This document shows positions 8,591-37,498 of a stretch of 64,000 nucleotides of DNA, one piece after another. This stretch comes from Xanthostigma xanthostigma. Taxonomy: Eukaryota > Arthropoda > Insecta > Raphidioptera > Raphidiidae. The position numbers were made by a program, and so were the translations under genes. Position 1 is the stretch's first letter. Each line of letters opens with the position of its first letter. The stretch is taken from NCBI GenBank assembly GCA_963575645.1, contig OY754464.1, positions 29,279,501 through 29,343,500 on the forward strand, in the 5' to 3' direction. The notes under the pieces are model-generated. The model made no database searches. It was given only the letters and a program-made list of their open reading frames with translations, and was not told where the DNA came from.

Positions 8591-10117
8591 CTACAAAGTG
8601 TAGTTTGCTTGTTGTATTAAGGTATTTTTTAGCTGTTTTTTAAATTTATTGCTATCTTGTTGTTTAATATTAGGTTCAATGTTGTTATATATTCGTATCA
8701 TAGCATTTCTAACTCCATTTTGCACGACAGACAGAGAGGACATGTCGGTTTTAAAATTTTCTTTTTTACGTGTGGGGTATTTATGACTAGATGTATTATT
8801 GTCAAATAAATGTTTATTTCTATGAACATAAGTAGCGCATTCTAATTTATAAAGGTCGTAAATCGTTAGTATGTTTAATTTCTTAAAATATTCATGGCAA
8901 CTCTCTCTAGGAGCTAGACCTGCTATGATACGTATACATCTCTTTTGTAAAATTAAAATTTTATTTGTATGGGCAGAGTTACCCCAAAAAATAATCCCAA
9001 AACCTATAATAGATTGGAAGTAGGCGTAATATACATACATCAACGATTTGGTCTCTAGGCATTTGGTATATTTAAGTGTTCTTAGAACATAAATGGCTTT
9101 TTGTAATTTTGGTATTAAGTAATCGATATGAAATTTCCAATTGATGTGCTTATCTATGTTGACGCCTAAAAATTTGACATGGTCTTTAAATTTTATGTCT
9201 GCGTTTAATATTTTAATGGATTGAGGGACCGAAAAATACTCTCCAAATTTAATTATTTCCGTTTTGGATTCATTGACTTTGATGCCGTTATCATTAAACC
9301 ATATATTTAATTTATTGATGCAACATTGGACTTTGGGGATAAGCAAGCCTTGATCTTCTGTCTCACATATAACAGAGGTGTCGTCGGCAAATAAGAAAAT
9401 ACTATCTTTGACCTCTTTAGGTAGGTCGTTTATAAACATTAAGAATAATATTGGAGATAGTACGCTACCTTGAGGAACACCACGTTTAATTGTGCTCCAG
9501 TTAGATAAAAATTCATTGTTAGATGTTTTAATTTTAACACATTGTTTCCTATCTGTAAGATATGAGGTCAGAAGATCAATAGTTTTCCCTCTTATTCCGT
9601 AGCGTTCCAGTTTATAGATCAATAGTGAAATATCGACACTGTCGAATGCCTTGGCAAGGTCAACTGTGACCATTGCTGTATATTTTTTATTGTTCCACGA
9701 TTTTAATATTGTATCTATGACTTTAAATATAGCTGTATTAATGGAACCGCCTCTGATAAACCCAAATTGGGCGGGCGAGATTAGGTTTAATTTGTTAATA
9801 TAATCTAGTAAACGTTTGTTAATAATTATTTCAAAGATTTTGCTAATATTTGATAAAAGCGAGATAGGCCGGTAGTTTGCTAAGTTATTTTTGTCCCCTT
9901 TTTTATAAATAGGTATAATTACCGCTTTTTTTAGTTTGTTTGGGTATATTCCCTTCTCTAGGCAGTTATTTATTATAATGCTAAGCGGATCACAAATTAG
10001 ATGCGCACATTTTTTCAGCACACCCACTGGAATTTCATCCCAGCCAGTAGAGTGTTTGTTTTTAAGCCCCATAGTAACGTTAAACACTTCTTGAGGGTCG
10101 GTTGGATTTAAAAACAT
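8591..10117 (-). CDS. Non-LTR retrotransposon reverse transcriptase fragment
   Basis: This 508-codon open frame is the RT and C-terminal region of a non-LTR retrotransposon polyprotein, which would copy element RNA at a nicked chromosomal target. Visible motifs in order: NYRPISLLS (81-89), DLAKAFDSVD with catalytic Asp 153, RGVPQGSVLSP (212-222), and the FADD box (243-246) with Asp 245 and 246. The C-terminal part carries GIIFWGNS and LQKRCIRIIAG, typical of Jockey/CR1/L2-like elements in insects. The catalytic triad is intact although the full element is not: the first Met is internal, and upstream sequence in the same frame (ending near 10160) continues the protein before a frameshift. Clade assignment beyond the Jockey/CR1/L2 group is uncertain. 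Confidence 0.88.
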   Translation of the reverse strand: MFLNPTDPQEVFNVTMGLKNKHSTGWDEIPVGVLKKCAHLICDPLSIIINNCLEKGIYPNKLKKAVIIPIYKKGDKNNLANYRPISLLSNISKIFEIIINKRLLDYINKLNLISPAQFGFIRGGSINTAIFKVIDTILKSWNNKKYTAMVTVDLAKAFDSVDISLLIYKLERYGIRGKTIDLLTSYLTDRKQCVKIKTSNNEFLSNWSTIKRGVPQGSVLSPILFLMFINDLPKEVKDSIFLFADDTSVICETEDQGLLIPKVQCCINKLNIWFNDNGIKVNESKTEIIKFGEYFSVPQSIKILNADIKFKDHVKFLGVNIDKHINWKFHIDYLIPKLQKAIYVLRTLKYTKCLETKSLMYVYYAYFQSIIGFGIIFWGNSAHTNKILILQKRCIRIIAGLAPRESCHEYFKKLNILTIYDLYKLECATYVHRNKHLFDNNTSSHKYPTRKKENFKTDMSSLSVVQNGVRNAMIRIYNNIEPNIKQQDSNKFKKQLKNTLIQQANYTL

Positions 10118-10340
10118 ATTTTGATTAATTGGGTCGATTCGTTCATTATTAAAGTTAGATTTAAGTTGCTAGTAGTATTTATAAAATAATTATTGAAATT
10201 GTTAGCGATATCAGGCGGGTTGATTACGGTTTCATTGTCCTGATTATTAATTTGCTCTATGCTATCCACATGCCGCGAATTTTTTGCAATATTATTAACG
10301 ATAGACCAATACGTTTTTACTTTATTATCTGATGTATTAA

Positions 10341-15156: not shown

Positions 15157-17244
15157 CTTAGTCTACCATCTTTAGAAGTCCGCCATATTGGATTTAGAGT
15201 GACGTCACTTTATTTTTCGAGTTATTCTCAGCAAGCCCTTTCATTTGATACCCATATTGTAGGAAAGCATAATAAAATTAGTCCGACGTCTTTAGAAGTC
15301 CGCCATATTGGATTTAGAGTGACGTGACTTTATTTTTCCAGTTATTCTCAGCAAGCCCTTTCATTTAATACCCATATTGTAAGTAAGCATAATAACATTA
15401 GTCCGCCATCTTTAGAAATCCGCCATATTGGATTTAGAGTGACGTCACTTTATTTTTCGAGTTATTCTCAGCAAGCCCTTTCATTTGATACCCATATTGT
15501 AGGAAAGCATAATAAAATTAGTCCGACGTCTTTAGAAGTCCGCCATATTGGATTTAGAGTGACGTGACTTTATTTTTCCAGTTATTCTCAGCAAGCCCTT
15601 TCATTTGATACCCATATTGTAGGAAAGCATAATAAAATTAGTCCGCCATCTTTAGAAGTCCGCCATATTGGATTTAGAGTGACGTAACTTTATGTTTCGA
15701 GTTATTCTCAGCAAGCCCTTTCATTTGATACCCATATTGTAGGTAAGCATAATAACATTAGTCCGCCATTTTTAGAAGTCCGCCATATTGGTTTTAGACT
15801 GACGTCACTTTATTTTTCGAGTTAATCTCAGCAAGCCCTTTCATTTAATACCCATATTGTAAGTAAGCATAATAACATTAGTCCGCCATCTTTAGAAATC
15901 CGCCATATTGGATTTAGAGTGACGTCACTTTATTTTTCGAGTTATTCTCAGCAAGCCCTTTCATTTGATACCCATATTGTAGGAAAGCATAAAAAACTTA
16001 GTCCGCCATCTTTAGAAGTCCGCCATATTGGATTTAGAGTGACGTAACTTTTTTTTCGTGTTATTCTCAGCAAGCCCTTTCATTTGATACCCATATTGTA
16101 GGTAAGCATAATAACATTAGTCCGCCATCTTTAGAAGTCCGCCATATTGGATTTAGAGTGACGTCACTTTATTTTTCGAGTTATTCTCAGCAAGCCCTTT
16201 CATTTGATACCCATATTGTAGGAAAGCATAATAAAATTAGTCCGCAATCTTTAGAAGTCCGCCATATTGGATTTAGAGTGACGTCACTTTATTTTTCGAG
16301 TTATTCTCAGCAAGCCCTTTCATTTGATACCCATATTGTTGGAAAGCATAATAAAATTAGTCCGCCATCTTTAGAAGTCCGCCATATTGGATTTAGAGTG
16401 ACGTCACTTTATTTTTCGAGTTATTCTCAGCAAGCCCTTTCATTTGATACCCATATTGTAGGAAAACATAATAAAATTAGTCAGCCATCTTTAGAAGTCC
16501 GCCATATTGGTTTTAGACTGACGTCACTTTATTTTTCGAGTTAATCTCAGCAAGCCCTTTCATTTGATACCCATATTGTAGGTAAGCATAATAACATTAG
16601 TCCGCCATCTTTAGAAGTCCGCCATATTGGATTTAGAGTGACGTAACTTTATGTTTCGAGTTATTCTCAGCAAGCCCTTTCATTTGATACCCATATTGTA
16701 GGTAAGCAAAATAACATTAGTCCGCCATCTTTAGAAGTCCGCCATATTGGTTTTAGACTGACGTCACTTTATTTTTCGAGTTAATCTCAGAAGCCCTTTC
16801 ATTTGATACCCATATTGTAGGTAAGCATAATAACATTAGTCCGCCATCTTTAGAAGTCCGCCATATTGGATTTAGAGTGACGTAACTTTATTTTTCGAGT
16901 TATTCTCAGCAAGCCCTTTCATTTGATACCCATATTGTAGGAAAGCATAAAAAACTTAGTCCGCCATCTTTAGAAGTCCGCCATATTGGATTTAGAGTGA
17001 CGTAACTTTTTTTTCGAGTTATTCTCAGCAAGCCCTTTCATTTGATACCCATATTGTAGGAAAACATAATAAAATTAGTCCGCCATCTTTAGAAGTCCGC
17101 CATATTGGATTTAGAGTGACGTCACTTTATTTTTCGAGTTATTCTTAGCAAGCCCTTTCATTTGATACCCATATTGTAGGAAAGCATAATAAAATTAGTC
17201 CGCCATCTTTAGAAGTCCGCCATATTGGATTTAGAGTGACGTCA
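15157..17244 (+). repeat. 120-bp satellite array, about 17.4 units
   Basis: Units start with TTTAGAAGTCCGCCATATTGG at 15171 and recur every 120 bp (119 bp in three places) through 17208, 18 starts in all with the last one truncated. Each unit contains a TGACGTNAC site, CAGCAAGCCCTTTCATT and a TACCCATATTGTAGG-like run. Eleven of 18 units have the exact palindrome TGACGTCA; the others have TGACGTAA or TGACGTGA. The unit length is 40 codons, so open frames run through it, but variants and 1-bp deletions show no coding constraint. Confidence 0.92.
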
Positions 17245-32690: not shown

Positions 32691-34150
32691 TTTATTACAA
32701 ATGATTGATAATGCAATGATTAAAACGCAAGGCATATTTGTAACAGGCGATGACACATTATATCAAGTAGGCATACCTTGATGAGACATCTGACCTACTA
32801 TTTCGAAATAAAAATTCCACTCAATATTTCCATATTATGTTTGATAACATACTTGCAGCACAATAATCTTGTTAAGGTATGCATGAGCCCATTTAGCAGC
32901 CCTGTAAGCCCACACAAGCACATATTATGTAGCAGGCTGCTGACACCAATGGCCTGCCATGTTGGTCGTTCACATTTTGTTTTACTGTAATAAAATGTGA
33001 ATATTAGTTTAAAGCGTGTATAAAACGCATTTTATTAAACATTATTAGAGTCAACACAATGCATAATATTAAAACGTTTTGAAACTGCATAATTACATGA
33101 ACAGGGGTGAAGACTGGGTCAAAGACTTCAAGTAAAGTTCATAGGTTACATTTTTTAAATACAGTGTAACGTGCTAAGCCGGATACCTGCGTAAATTTGC
33201 AACTTTCAACTGTTATTAAGTGACACTGTGACGTCTTAAGCGATCTGAATTAGTTTTATCGTAGGTTATGTAAATGTCGTCAAACTGATTATTTCAACAA
33301 TATATAATTGCAATAACAATTGCAGAAGGATTTAAAATTACGTTTGTAATTACTATAAATAACAAAAATAATTTAATGTACATTTAGTCATAATAATGAA
33401 ATTCAAAAATGATGTCAAAATATTTAGGAGGCTTTGAAATATCAAAAACTCTTGGTCTGACCTCTAAGTCCCGTCATCCGACCGACAATAGTGTATGTGC
33501 CATATACCTATAACAAATACACAACTAAAATTGTAACTCTGTTTAGATGAAATTTTTAACGAAATTCTACTTAGATGTACAATTTATAGTCGGTAGGTAC
33601 CTATATCTGAACTGAATTAACCATTTTCAGAAATATGTTGTGCCTGCCTATTTTGTTTGTTCCATCAGATTAACTGAAAAACTATTATCAATTTTGACAA
33701 GAACGGTAGACACAAAATGATTACTTTTAAATTCTCAATATGTGAGGTCTTAATATTTTCTACAAGTTAGAAATCGAAATTCAAAAGTGGTCAAACTTAC
33801 AACCCGCTAAATAATAATTATAGTCATTTATTCGAGCGCCATTTAAGTGTAGAAAATATATTTTTTAAAATGAAAAATTCGAGCACCTTCACGTATCAAA
33901 AGTAATACCTGTTGACTGTGAAATGTAAAAGTAACAAATTATTTCTAGGAAAAAGAAAAAAACTAAATTTTAATAACTCTTTAATGAAATATGTAAATTG
34001 TTTTATCAGATATAAAATTTAATGACAAAAATACATAGACTTAGTACTAAAAGGGGATAATATATTGTATCAGTAATCTAGTATACAATAAATGAAATAC
34101 AAACCGTACCAAACTGTTGAATCAGATTACAGTATCAAATAATATGCAAT
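32691..34150. other. Unassigned sequence
   Basis: A decayed family B piece is visible at about 33400-33530 (CCCGTCATCCGACCGACAAT). No supported gene. Confidence 0.4.
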
Positions 34151-34154
34151 AGTT

Positions 34155-34690
34155 TGAAACGATTAACTTCGGACTTTTTCGGATAAGCTCACGTAATCGT
34201 CTCGTAATATAATTTAAAATAAATTTTAATAAAATTAATAAACAATTTAAAATATTTATTTTCAATGTTTTATTATAAAATTGTTGTTAACAAGATATCT
34301 TAGGATGTACACACAGACAATTTCTGATATGTTAATGTGATTGGAATTGACAAAGTGAAAAATAATCAATTAAACGACACATACAAAAAGAAATTTGGAT
34401 CGGTAGATCACCAAGTACTCCAGATTCTCCCTGATGTGATTCAAAAGAAATATTTCAGCACTTTTTCACAGCTTATTTTGAATACATACTATTTCAACCT
34501 TTTAAAACCTACTGCCTTTTTTCAGACAAAAAACATATTTTTTTCTTTATTTCACTGCGTCGTTCAACATGCCAAAACCAAAATTGACACGCGCCGTGAC
34601 AAAACAAATAGACAAGTACAGTAAATACCCAATTCTAATTATTACCTCTAAACTACGTACAATGTAATATAAAAGTTTTGAATCGTTACA
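34155..34690 (-). repeat. 3' LTR (minus-strand sense)
   Basis: 536 bp and identical to its partner. In element sense AATAAA signals fall at about 34274-34255 near its end, consistent with a polyadenylation site in the R region. Confidence 0.9.
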
Positions 34691-34703
34691 TAGCCCCCCC
34701 AGC
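34691..34703 (-). other. Polypurine tract candidate
   Basis: In element sense CTGGGGGGGCTA lies immediately before the 3' LTR, where plus-strand priming is expected. The tract is short and interrupted by CT. A 10-bp inverted pair (AGCGGTTCAT at 34701, ATGAACCGCT at 34746) lies next to it. Confidence 0.6.
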
Positions 34704-35177
34704 GGTTCATACGAACAATTTTAGAATAAAGAAATGCATGGAGGATGAACCGCTTAAATAAATGAGAATTATGTACTACCTGGAATTTTACGAAGATTTA
34801 CCACATTGAATAAAATACTAATCTTCGTTTACACGTACTATATAAAATATTAAAAAAAAACATAAAAATTTCAAAACAATTAAAAAAAAATTAGTTAATC
34901 AATCTTTTCAACTGAAAACAATATAAAATGTTCGAAGAATTTTCAACTATAAAAAAAAACAATTGTGTTTATATTTACTGCAAAGTATAAAATAAAGATC
35001 TGTGCATTTAGATGTTCAAAGACAAAATTTAACTAAATCATATCACAATTTATGCACAGCCATAGCGCGTCATAGTAAAATTTAATTATGAACTATGACT
35101 GTCCATAATTCCGCTTTAAATTCTTTATGCACCCGATAAGAATGCACATTTACACAAACAATTGACTATCTACTTAG
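34704..35177 (-). other. Probable captured 3' UTR and element 3' leader
   Basis: About 470 bp of AT-rich, non-coding sequence downstream of the SMAP stop codon in element sense. It lacks a clear poly(A) run, so where the cellular 3' UTR ends and element sequence resumes is unknown. Confidence 0.5.
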
Positions 35178-36020
35178 TTACTGTTGTTGCAGGGCTTGTT
35201 GATTAGCGTAAAAGGGATTAGGCACTGCTGCGCCCGTATTAGGAGCAAAGTTTTGAGTTTGCATCGTTTGTTGAGCCAACACAAATTGATTCTGAGGCGG
35301 CGAAACAAATGTCGATTGGTTTTGAAAAGCTTGCTGCGGTTGCGAGGAAGCTTGCAAGTTTGTCGGATAAATTGGAACTTGAAATGCTTGTTGCTGAACT
35401 TGAAAGCCAGGAATTGCCCCTGTCGGAGTGTAATTTGCTTGAAACGTAGTTTGTTGCATCGGAGCATTGCCGTATAATGCCAATATGCTATCTTCAGATA
35501 ATTTAGTCTCTTCTTTTTCGGTCGGAGTTGGTTGATTAAAGAAACTTTCTTCTTCGCTTTGAAATTTCGCGTTTTCGACACTGGATTTGTCGTCTTCTTT
35601 ATCCTAATTTACTTTTGGCAGTGCCGGAGGCACCCATTCTCTGGCGATATACTATTTATGTTCATATTTCGCGCGCACAAATGACTCTAAACTAGAATCG
35701 TTTGAGAACGCCGGAAATGGTCGGGCAAATTTGCTTCGCAAACAGCCCAAACACGACTGTTGCCCATCTGTTGAGAATCATGTCCATTTATCCAGATTCA
35801 CTGATTTTACTTTCAAAATATGAACGCCGAGATTTCTATGTATTCCTGCACATCTTATACATAAAAACACACCTATGTTCCACGATGCCCAACGAGGATC
35901 TTTTGTATCGCAATCGACACAATATTTATTATCCTCATCTCTTAACAAATCATTTAGTACTTGTTGCCATTTGTCCTGAATTTGTTTTGCACGATCTTTT
36001 TTTTCACTTTTTGCAGTAAT
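35178..36020 (-). pseudogene. SMAP-family ArfGAP retrocopy (broken)
   Basis: SMAP proteins are Arf GTPase-activating proteins that act in clathrin-linked membrane traffic. Read on the minus strand, 36020-35778 (81 codons) gives an ArfGAP domain: CVDC, exactly 16 residues, then CIRC (the CX2CX16CX2C zinc finger), followed by CAGIHRNLG with the catalytic arginine and VKSVNLD. After a TGA (35780-35778) the sense shifts frame (QQMGNSRVWAVCEANLPDHF), then shifts again near 35698 (SLESFVRAKYEHK) and runs through two TAG stops (35654-35652 and 35606-35604; the second lies where the family has Trp in PKVNW) into YIAREWVPPALPK, KLSEDSILALYGNAP and a Gln-rich tail ending at 35178. The ATG is replaced by ATT. 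No introns interrupt the domain, so it is a cDNA copy. It lies in the sense direction of the LTR element. Confidence 0.9.
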
Positions 36021-36160
36021 TTTAATAACTTAAATTTTATAATATATAAACAAATAATTTGATTTATAGTTAATTGATTGATATTGATTTAATAATAATT
36101 ATTATTGATATTATTATTAAAATGTCACTTGGTGTTAGTCTGGATAATTTCCAAGGTCCA
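36021..36160 (-). other. Leader between primer site and captured gene
   Basis: AT-rich leader of about 140 bp without any gag-like frame. The breakpoint between element leader and captured mRNA lies somewhere here or just inside the ArfGAP start, but I cannot place it from one copy. Confidence 0.5.
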
Positions 36161-36178
36161 GTCTTTTTTCGGGCGCCA
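36161..36178 (-). other. Primer-binding site, tRNA-Lys(TTT) type
   Basis: In element sense the 18 bases TGGCGCCCGAAAAAAGAC begin two bases after the LTR. They match the primer site complementary to the 3' end of tRNA-Lys(TTT) at 15 of 18 positions by my comparison, including all of the first eleven. This fixes the direction of the element. Confidence 0.8.
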
Positions 36179-36180
36179 AA

Positions 36181-36716
36181 TGAAACGATTAACTTCGGAC
36201 TTTTTCGGATAAGCTCACGTAATCGTCTCGTAATATAATTTAAAATAAATTTTAATAAAATTAATAAACAATTTAAAATATTTATTTTCAATGTTTTATT
36301 ATAAAATTGTTGTTAACAAGATATCTTAGGATGTACACACAGACAATTTCTGATATGTTAATGTGATTGGAATTGACAAAGTGAAAAATAATCAATTAAA
36401 CGACACATACAAAAAGAAATTTGGATCGGTAGATCACCAAGTACTCCAGATTCTCCCTGATGTGATTCAAAAGAAATATTTCAGCACTTTTTCACAGCTT
36501 ATTTTGAATACATACTATTTCAACCTTTTAAAACCTACTGCCTTTTTTCAGACAAAAAACATATTTTTTTCTTTATTTCACTGCGTCGTTCAACATGCCA
36601 AAACCAAAATTGACACGCGCCGTGACAAAACAAATAGACAAGTACAGTAAATACCCAATTCTAATTATTACCTCTAAACTACGTACAATGTAATATAAAA
36701 GTTTTGAATCGTTACA
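36181..36716 (-). repeat. 5' LTR (minus-strand sense)
   Basis: 536 bp, begins TGTAACGATTC and ends CGAAGTTAATCGTTTCA in element sense. A TATATTACATTG stretch close to its start could serve as a TATA region. It is identical to the other LTR. Confidence 0.9.
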
Positions 36717-36883
36717 AGTTTTAGTATAGGGGTTGCTTCTGTGTTCCTTTTAGTAATTTAATAGTAATTTACTATTTACTCGTTATTCACATCAAATCAA
36801 TCAAGGTTGTGGCTAAAATATTTTATTTTCAATACATCTGTATTTAATACAGACTGCAGTTTATTACTTTCCAGTTTTCTTGT

Positions 36884-37498
36884 TTTTTGACGTGATAACG
36901 TCTTATAAATTGATGAATCACCAATCTTATAAATTGATAAAACACCGGCTGCATGCACGAAAAAGTGTAACGTTCCTAACGTAACGTTCCTAACGTTCGT
37001 AACGCGTAACGTTCCGCCTGACCCTGTGCGTGCTTTTCTCGAAAACGGCCCTAACGATTTGGATGAAATTTACTGAAAAGGGATTTTGGGGGGCAAAAAA
37101 TCGTTTTAGCTAGGTCTCATCTCTCGAAAAAATCGTTTTCTTACAAATTTTATCATTATAAAAATCAATTTTTTGACGTATGAAAATACTTAAATATTGT
37201 AAGTAGGTTTTGGAATTTTATATACTTAAACAATAAAACAATTGTTTTCTAAATATTATGACAGTTAATCTTTGAGACTTAAATAAATACGGAAGAAAGA
37301 AAGTTAATAAAAAAAATTATTTTTATAGGTGGTGAGTAATTTAATAAATAAAATTAACCAAAATTTGAAGCGAAAGATGCAATATCATAGATTCGAATTA
37401 TTATAATTATTATATGTAGAATTTAGGTTATGTATTACGGAATACGTTATCACGTAAAACTATCGTCCGTAAACCGACTTTACAGACAACCAATTTTT
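36884..37498 (-). mobile_element. ACGTGATAACGT element, longer copy
   Basis: Ends are TTTTTTGACGTGATAACGTC and ACGTTATCACGTAAAACTATC followed by a GTCCGTAAACCGACTTTACAG end. This is the 0.6-kb relative, in reverse orientation, of the 186-bp copy beside the satellite. A CGTAACGTTC-rich patch lies at about 36968-37018. No transposase frame. Confidence 0.65.

Follow-up and report, generated by a model that had tools for sequence, protein, structure and literature searches.

A non-autonomous LTR retrotransposon family with a SMAP cDNA as probable passenger in Xanthostigma xanthostigma

How does a small LTR element come to hold a host gene in place of gag-pol? The question is raised by an element of 2,562 bp without gag-pol at positions 34155–36716 of the window, the whole 64,000-nucleotide stretch of DNA analyzed here. 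The element is read on the minus strand because its primer binding site lies at the 36180 side and its G-run at the 34691 side, and all parts of it described below are given on that strand. Its 5′ LTR (36181–36716) and 3′ LTR (34155–34690) are direct repeats of 536 bp each with 100% identity and termini of the TG..CA type (TGTAAC..GTTTCA), and the 4-bp target site duplication AGTT flanks them at 34151–34154 and 36717–36720. The primer site (36161–36178) and a few leader bases behind the 5′ LTR together occupy 36156–36180, and a G-rich polypurine tract (34691–34702) stands next to the 3′ LTR. Identical repeats, AGTT duplication and correctly placed G-run had all been claimed in a preliminary description of this locus and are recovered as described there; the tRNA-Lys-type primer site is likewise present, but in the window copy it matches tRNA-Lys(TTT) at 15/18 bases only. 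With LTRs, target duplication, primer site and polypurine tract present and gag-pol absent, the element is a non-autonomous LTR retrotransposon. Its interior is explained by leader, SMAP sequence (34809–36155) and a 118-bp LTR-element tail (34691–34808), and its longest open stretch is 144 codons. No Rfam matches were found within 33500–37400 and no tRNA genes within the whole window. Elsewhere in the window, a 525-codon open stretch (8591–10168, minus strand) resembles a non-LTR reverse transcriptase by eye, and a 168-codon open stretch (16038–16544, plus strand) consists of near-identical tandem units.

The genome searched comprises 623 Mb in 28 contigs. The host SMAP gene lies on contig C10 (locus C10:36183001–36192000), has its coding intron and encodes a 486-residue protein that matches the ArfGap profile across positions 2–116 of 117. 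The best solved relatives of the zinc-finger piece in the window carry the name stromal membrane-associated proteins. Aligned to the C10 locus by BLASTN, the 1,490-base interior resolves into five colinear pieces that run from 5′ UTR to 3′ UTR with identities of 82% (5′ UTR and exon 1), 87% (exon 2), 96% and 96% (two further coding pieces) and 93% (3′ UTR). The host intron (GTGAGT..TTTTAAG) is missing at the exon 1/exon 2 joint (35899–35900) and the SMAP sequence runs in the sense of the element, which bears out the earlier claim of an intronless, sense-oriented copy. Three more stretches of the host transcript are absent from the interior, two of them coding and the third made up of the coding end and the 3′ UTR start. 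These were considered as introns and rejected: by eye, no GT..AG was seen at any of them, and two are bordered by direct repeats of 8 and 9 bases. No poly(A) and no target duplication were seen at the SMAP edges. A second candidate donor, C2:6231728, showed no DNA match to the interior, and its protein pieces led to C10; a supposed intron-bearing gene at C4:27515 proved to be a copy of the element that has been cut short and has taken up an insertion. The donor contig has two further SMAP-like stretches, at C10:788374–794915 and C10:11585628–11603791, with several stops C-terminally.

The preliminary description had also credited this copy with a complete ArfGAP zinc finger. The CVDC-x16-CIRC motif is indeed present (35850–35921), but the reading frame does not span the whole ArfGap domain. 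The open stretch at 35778–36029 covers profile positions 2–62 of 117 only; behind it come a TGA at a frameshifting deletion (35778–35780), a frameshifted stretch and a TAG where the host has a Lys codon (35652–35654). A stop-tolerant search of the window copy aligns profile positions 2–115 with one TGA and one TAG inside, and no whole ArfGap domain in one open frame is present. The former SMAP start codon (36018–36020) reads ATT.

What the SMAP sequence replaced can be read from a gag-pol-type relative. An exact search with the 15-base primer-site form of the window copy gave no tRNA gene: its 39 matches are 36 places beside SMAP copies and three elsewhere, and these three are copies of the relative. 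It is known from pieces, namely 270 bases of each of the three copies and 400, 900 and 600 bases of one. A distance of 6,107 bp separates the LTR ends in each of the three copies. Each begins its interior behind an LTR end that shares 92.5% identity with the window LTR over 67 bases; the same primer site and the same leader up to about base 24 follow, and then a putative gag start, judged only by the resemblance of its first residues to those of another element, L077. A middle piece encodes a reverse transcriptase (RVT_1, E 1.3e-16) whose nearest solved structures are Ty3 entries, and the 900-base piece, open over 299 codons, gave no Pfam match. At the 3′ end, read in one copy (L093), an integrase-type SH3 domain (SH3_Tf2-1, PF24626, E 6.7e-9) runs to a stop. 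Behind this stop stand the tail of the SMAP element (111/117 aligned columns identical, 95%), the polypurine tract and an LTR start with 91% identity over 77 bases; in the SMAP element, the tail takes in the last integrase codons, a non-coding stretch and the polypurine tract. By its reverse transcriptase and integrase type the relative would belong to the Ty3 lineage. The search for an autonomous parent that the preliminary description had proposed was thus answered in part: a gag-pol-type relative exists in three copies, but with 91–92.5% identity to the window LTR at the two LTR ends compared it is related to the source without being that source.

The number of such relatives is at least three, by exact primer-site search and LTR-end search among the matches listed; relatives with other primer sites or older LTRs may escape both, and of 394 candidates for the LTR family in a first look, 40 were scored. 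A looser search with the tRNA-Lys form, allowing up to 2 mismatches, returned 21 places, of which nine are SMAP copies, and no relative with such an LTR end. Two elements found through a full tRNA-Lys primer site, L075 (C2:26045501–26048300) and L077 (C4:4000501–4002800), were set aside as relatives: they are of another LTR family, have no match to the window LTR or interior at E 0.01, and share only short, chance-like DNA matches with the pieces of the relative. Their family has a gag-like frame of 378 residues that opens with residues similar to those in the relative; the frame in L077 has no Pfam match.

Alignment of the interior to host SMAP, another proposal of the preliminary description, located both junctions. 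The left joint falls about 24 bases after the LTR, at the end of the shared leader (TGGA; 36156–36160), where the relative reads TGGATCGTTGGG, the host GCCATCTTGGAA and the element TGGACCTTGGAA; ATC is common to the leader of the relative and the SMAP 5′ UTR, with one base changed in the element. The right joint falls in the last integrase codons, where host, relative and element read TTTTATTATAAAA, GTTCACAATGTTG and TTTTATTCAATGTGG, respectively, and two bases at most are shared. At both joints, spliced host cDNA is joined directly to LTR-element sequence. Among the loci that match fixed patterns, the only ones counted in this survey, the left joint varies by single bases and the right joint has two forms one base apart. 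The gag-pol of the relative is missing exactly between the two joints, and of its interior the SMAP element retains only the roughly 24 bases of leader and the 118 bases of tail. The donor gene, the near-invariant joints of the pattern-matching copies and a relative that agrees in primer site, tail, polypurine tract and LTR ends together uphold the claim that a SMAP cDNA stands in place of gag-pol.

The window element has many sisters, as the proposed genome-wide search revealed. SMAP-bearing copies number at least 47 at no fewer than 44 places, with three in a tandem on C6 and two in a tandem on C5; these counts are lower bounds from the scoring of 40 of 52 candidates, and they leave out the C10 matches, which are not part of elements. 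In those copies whose orientation was examined, SMAP and the LTRs point the same way. Both LTRs are present end to end in 29 of the 30 loci L009–L038, the 3′ LTR of L034 being interrupted. A perfect 4-bp target duplication was found in 28 of 30 loci assessed (L009–L038 without L034, plus L070); the exceptions, L024 and L025, are halves of one tandem array that have one LTR in common and GACA on both outer flanks. The LTR pairs of 13/29 loci have no substitutions and those of 21/29 at most one; the pair at L053 was dropped from these counts, as its LTRs face opposite ways and their pairing is an artefact. At L015, L019 and L023, the two LTRs of a copy show 11, 8 and 7 differences, respectively, and fall in different parts of the tree, variation that points to probable later conversion between copies. 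Fourteen LTRs without adjoining SMAP (L006, L008 and L078–L089) read as solo LTRs, since neither primer site nor polypurine tract borders any of them and 11 have a perfect target duplication. The tandem arrays of LTR and SMAP interior, L070 (C6:31541901–31549300; three interiors) and L024/L025 (C5:23661212–23667123; two), each have a single target duplication at their outer ends. L074 and L076, initially primer-site candidates, are old SMAP copies instead; at L074 (C5:42319801–42322800), as at L053 (C5:6245950–6249135), old SMAP copies lie beside oppositely oriented LTR sequence.

Thirty-one of the 47 copies, near-full-length among the loci used, were aligned (L009–L038 and L054). The splice, the three deletions and the TAG are identical in all 31, and the start codon is ATG in 25 and ATT in six, the window copy included. 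Because splice, deletions and stop are common to 31/31 aligned copies, the family goes back to one capture followed by amplification. The tree alone would be insufficient for a single origin, since the host is its sole outgroup; it is the shared joints and shared damage that prove one. By the same alignment, the ancestor of these copies already had a damaged SMAP frame before they spread. Both this early damage and the existence of a whole family go beyond the preliminary description. Across 36 loci, the longest open stretches range from 89 to 161 codons. For host coding sites that 20 or more of the copies retain, the changes that distinguish the copies comprise 82 amino-acid-changing, 35 silent and eight stop changes (66%, 28% and 6%), compared with 71%, 24% and 5% expected without selection; the splice site used for these counts lies three bases too early, which adds one extra codon and affects that codon alone. 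This variation looks neutral, with no sign of selection. Fixed differences between copies and host, which include changes on the host's own branch, number 18 (nine silent, eight changing and one stop). Taken as sequence, SMAP appears to be passenger cargo rather than a working ArfGAP. For annotators, a warning follows: most ArfGap matches in a profile search of this genome are element copies, not genes.

Copies of the family also bear probable traces of continued reverse transcription. Two tRNA-Lys(TTT) genes with a fitting 3′ end were found in the genome, and the primer site of some copies, for example L012, L014 and L070, matches this tRNA at 18/18 bases. In an alignment of about 1,480 columns, the only features that set L012 and L014 apart from the near-identical L013 are three primer-site bases and one and two single-base indels, respectively, and it is the three changed bases that give the 18/18 pairing. 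In the window form, only the first 11 bases run with tRNA-Lys(TTT); the form persists, though copying from the primer should overwrite it. The window copy itself is identical to L010 between interior bases 30 and 1050, behind which it is nearer to L034, L029 and L035 (2 differences versus 4), and its LTR is nearest those of L034 and L009 (2/536 differences each). It thus seems to combine the interior of one subfamily with the LTR of another; the breakpoint rests on two sites and the LTR, and for the 3′ part L029 and L035 are as good a fit as L034. Continued reverse transcription would account for the rewritten primer sites and for the swapped combinations of LTR and interior, and the swaps would fit co-packaged RNAs with strand switching; conversion between copies could have produced the swaps instead.

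Taken together, we assign a probability of about 0.93 to a family of non-autonomous LTR retrotransposons that arose in a single chimeric reverse transcription event, with SMAP as its passenger. Under this model, a Ty3-type element would have packaged spliced SMAP mRNA alongside its own RNA. Minus-strand synthesis would have proceeded from the primer site through R, U3 and the polypurine tract to the end of integrase, switched there to the SMAP 3′ UTR, copied SMAP as far as its 5′ UTR, and switched a second time to the element leader just behind the primer site; the order of the switches is the one we favor. A model with two template switches has been described, and copies made in this way gain LTRs and can move again (PMC5408686). 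Retaining LTRs, primer site and polypurine tract, the chimera could be transcribed and could move with proteins supplied in trans, presumably by the lineage of the relative, and would so have spread to at least 44 places. Two switches during minus-strand synthesis are the simplest account of the joints and the best we can offer.

The main competing origin is insertion of SMAP into an existing LTR element as a LINE-made processed pseudogene, with later spread of the composite. Processed pseudogenes are common, and a frame of non-LTR reverse transcriptase type, judged by eye, lies in the same window. Such a retrocopy, which the preliminary description had named as the finding that would overturn it, is nonetheless highly improbable here: neither poly(A) nor target duplication was seen at the SMAP edges, and these edges lie some 24 bases behind the LTR and in the last integrase codons with the gag-pol between them missing, so that insertion would have to be joined by a deletion that removed about 5 kb and ended at matching positions on both sides. 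Equally improbable is retention of SMAP for a useful ArfGAP or SMAP-tail protein, in the manner of a transduced gene. A point in its favor is that in 24 of the 36 loci no open stretch is longer than the one of 157 codons that follows the shared TAG, yet the in-frame ArfGap match in the window ends at profile position 62, the stop is common to every aligned copy and the changes among copies look neutral.

Effects at the RNA level deserve somewhat more weight, while still being unlikely. By analogy with the Masc cDNA copies of Plutella xylostella, a precedent described in PMC9674220, SMAP copies might give rise to small RNAs that modulate the host SMAP gene, and long stretches 93–96% identical to the host transcript do occur in at least 47 copies. 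SMAP nevertheless has the orientation of the LTR in the copies looked at, its variation fits plain cargo, and we regard this role as doubtful. Marginally less doubtful is a benefit of SMAP mRNA to the element itself, through packaging, export, stability or escape from silencing; if true, such a benefit would have SMAP chimeras (at least 47) outnumber gag-pol-type relatives (at least three found). One genome displays the stages of LTR-mediated gene capture together, from donor gene and gag-pol-type relative through both joints to the spread of the chimera. Provided that SMAP itself contributes nothing, the parental sequence sufficing in cis for mobilization is bounded by the LTRs, some 24 leader bases and a tail of 118 bases. 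The rewritten primer sites and swapped LTRs would in turn record the way in which elements of this type are copied.

Neither LTR-mediated retroposition nor the carriage of genes by LTR elements is new. The former was reportedly documented in animals by Tan et al. (2016, Genome Res. 26:1663). Animal cases have spliced host mRNA between the ends of an LTR element, as here, with short shared sequence at the switch points (PMC8232201, PMC5408686, PMC9674220); the SMAP chimera differs in being a family of at least 47 copies with subfamilies, a gag-pol-type relative and two readable joints. Bs1 of maize, too, is an LTR element that has taken up intron-free host exons (PMC4717578, PMC5408686), and it is linked to three cellular genes (PMC5408686). 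The SMAP element, in contrast, holds one mRNA from UTR to UTR, which replaces all of gag-pol.

TRIMs are marked by very short LTRs and a small total size, and by these limits the SMAP element, with 536-bp LTRs and 2,562 bp in total, is not one. Gene-carrying TRIMs of plants are similarly multi-copy and non-autonomous; they retain both LTRs, carry fragments of exons and show target duplications, but measure 1,172–1,449 bp as compared with 2,562 bp (PMC4717578). A larger related element is given there for only 11/289 TRIM subfamilies (PMC4717578), whereas one was found for the SMAP element. PbTRIM of the red harvester ant is also an insect non-autonomous element with 4-bp target duplications and solo LTRs, but its interior is non-coding and no autonomous partner was known to its authors (PMC3532108). 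Pxyfem of Plutella xylostella joins partial host cDNA to an LTR element at short shared sequence in several copies; unlike the SMAP family, with its whole elements dispersed over the genome, it lies on the W chromosome, is degraded, is without an LTR element on one side and is a source of silencing RNA (PMC9674220). No animal family of the present kind was found in the open-licence literature, covered mostly at abstract level. What the SMAP family adds to these systems is accordingly modest in scope: an amplified family of the animal type for which the donor, a relative and both joints are in hand.
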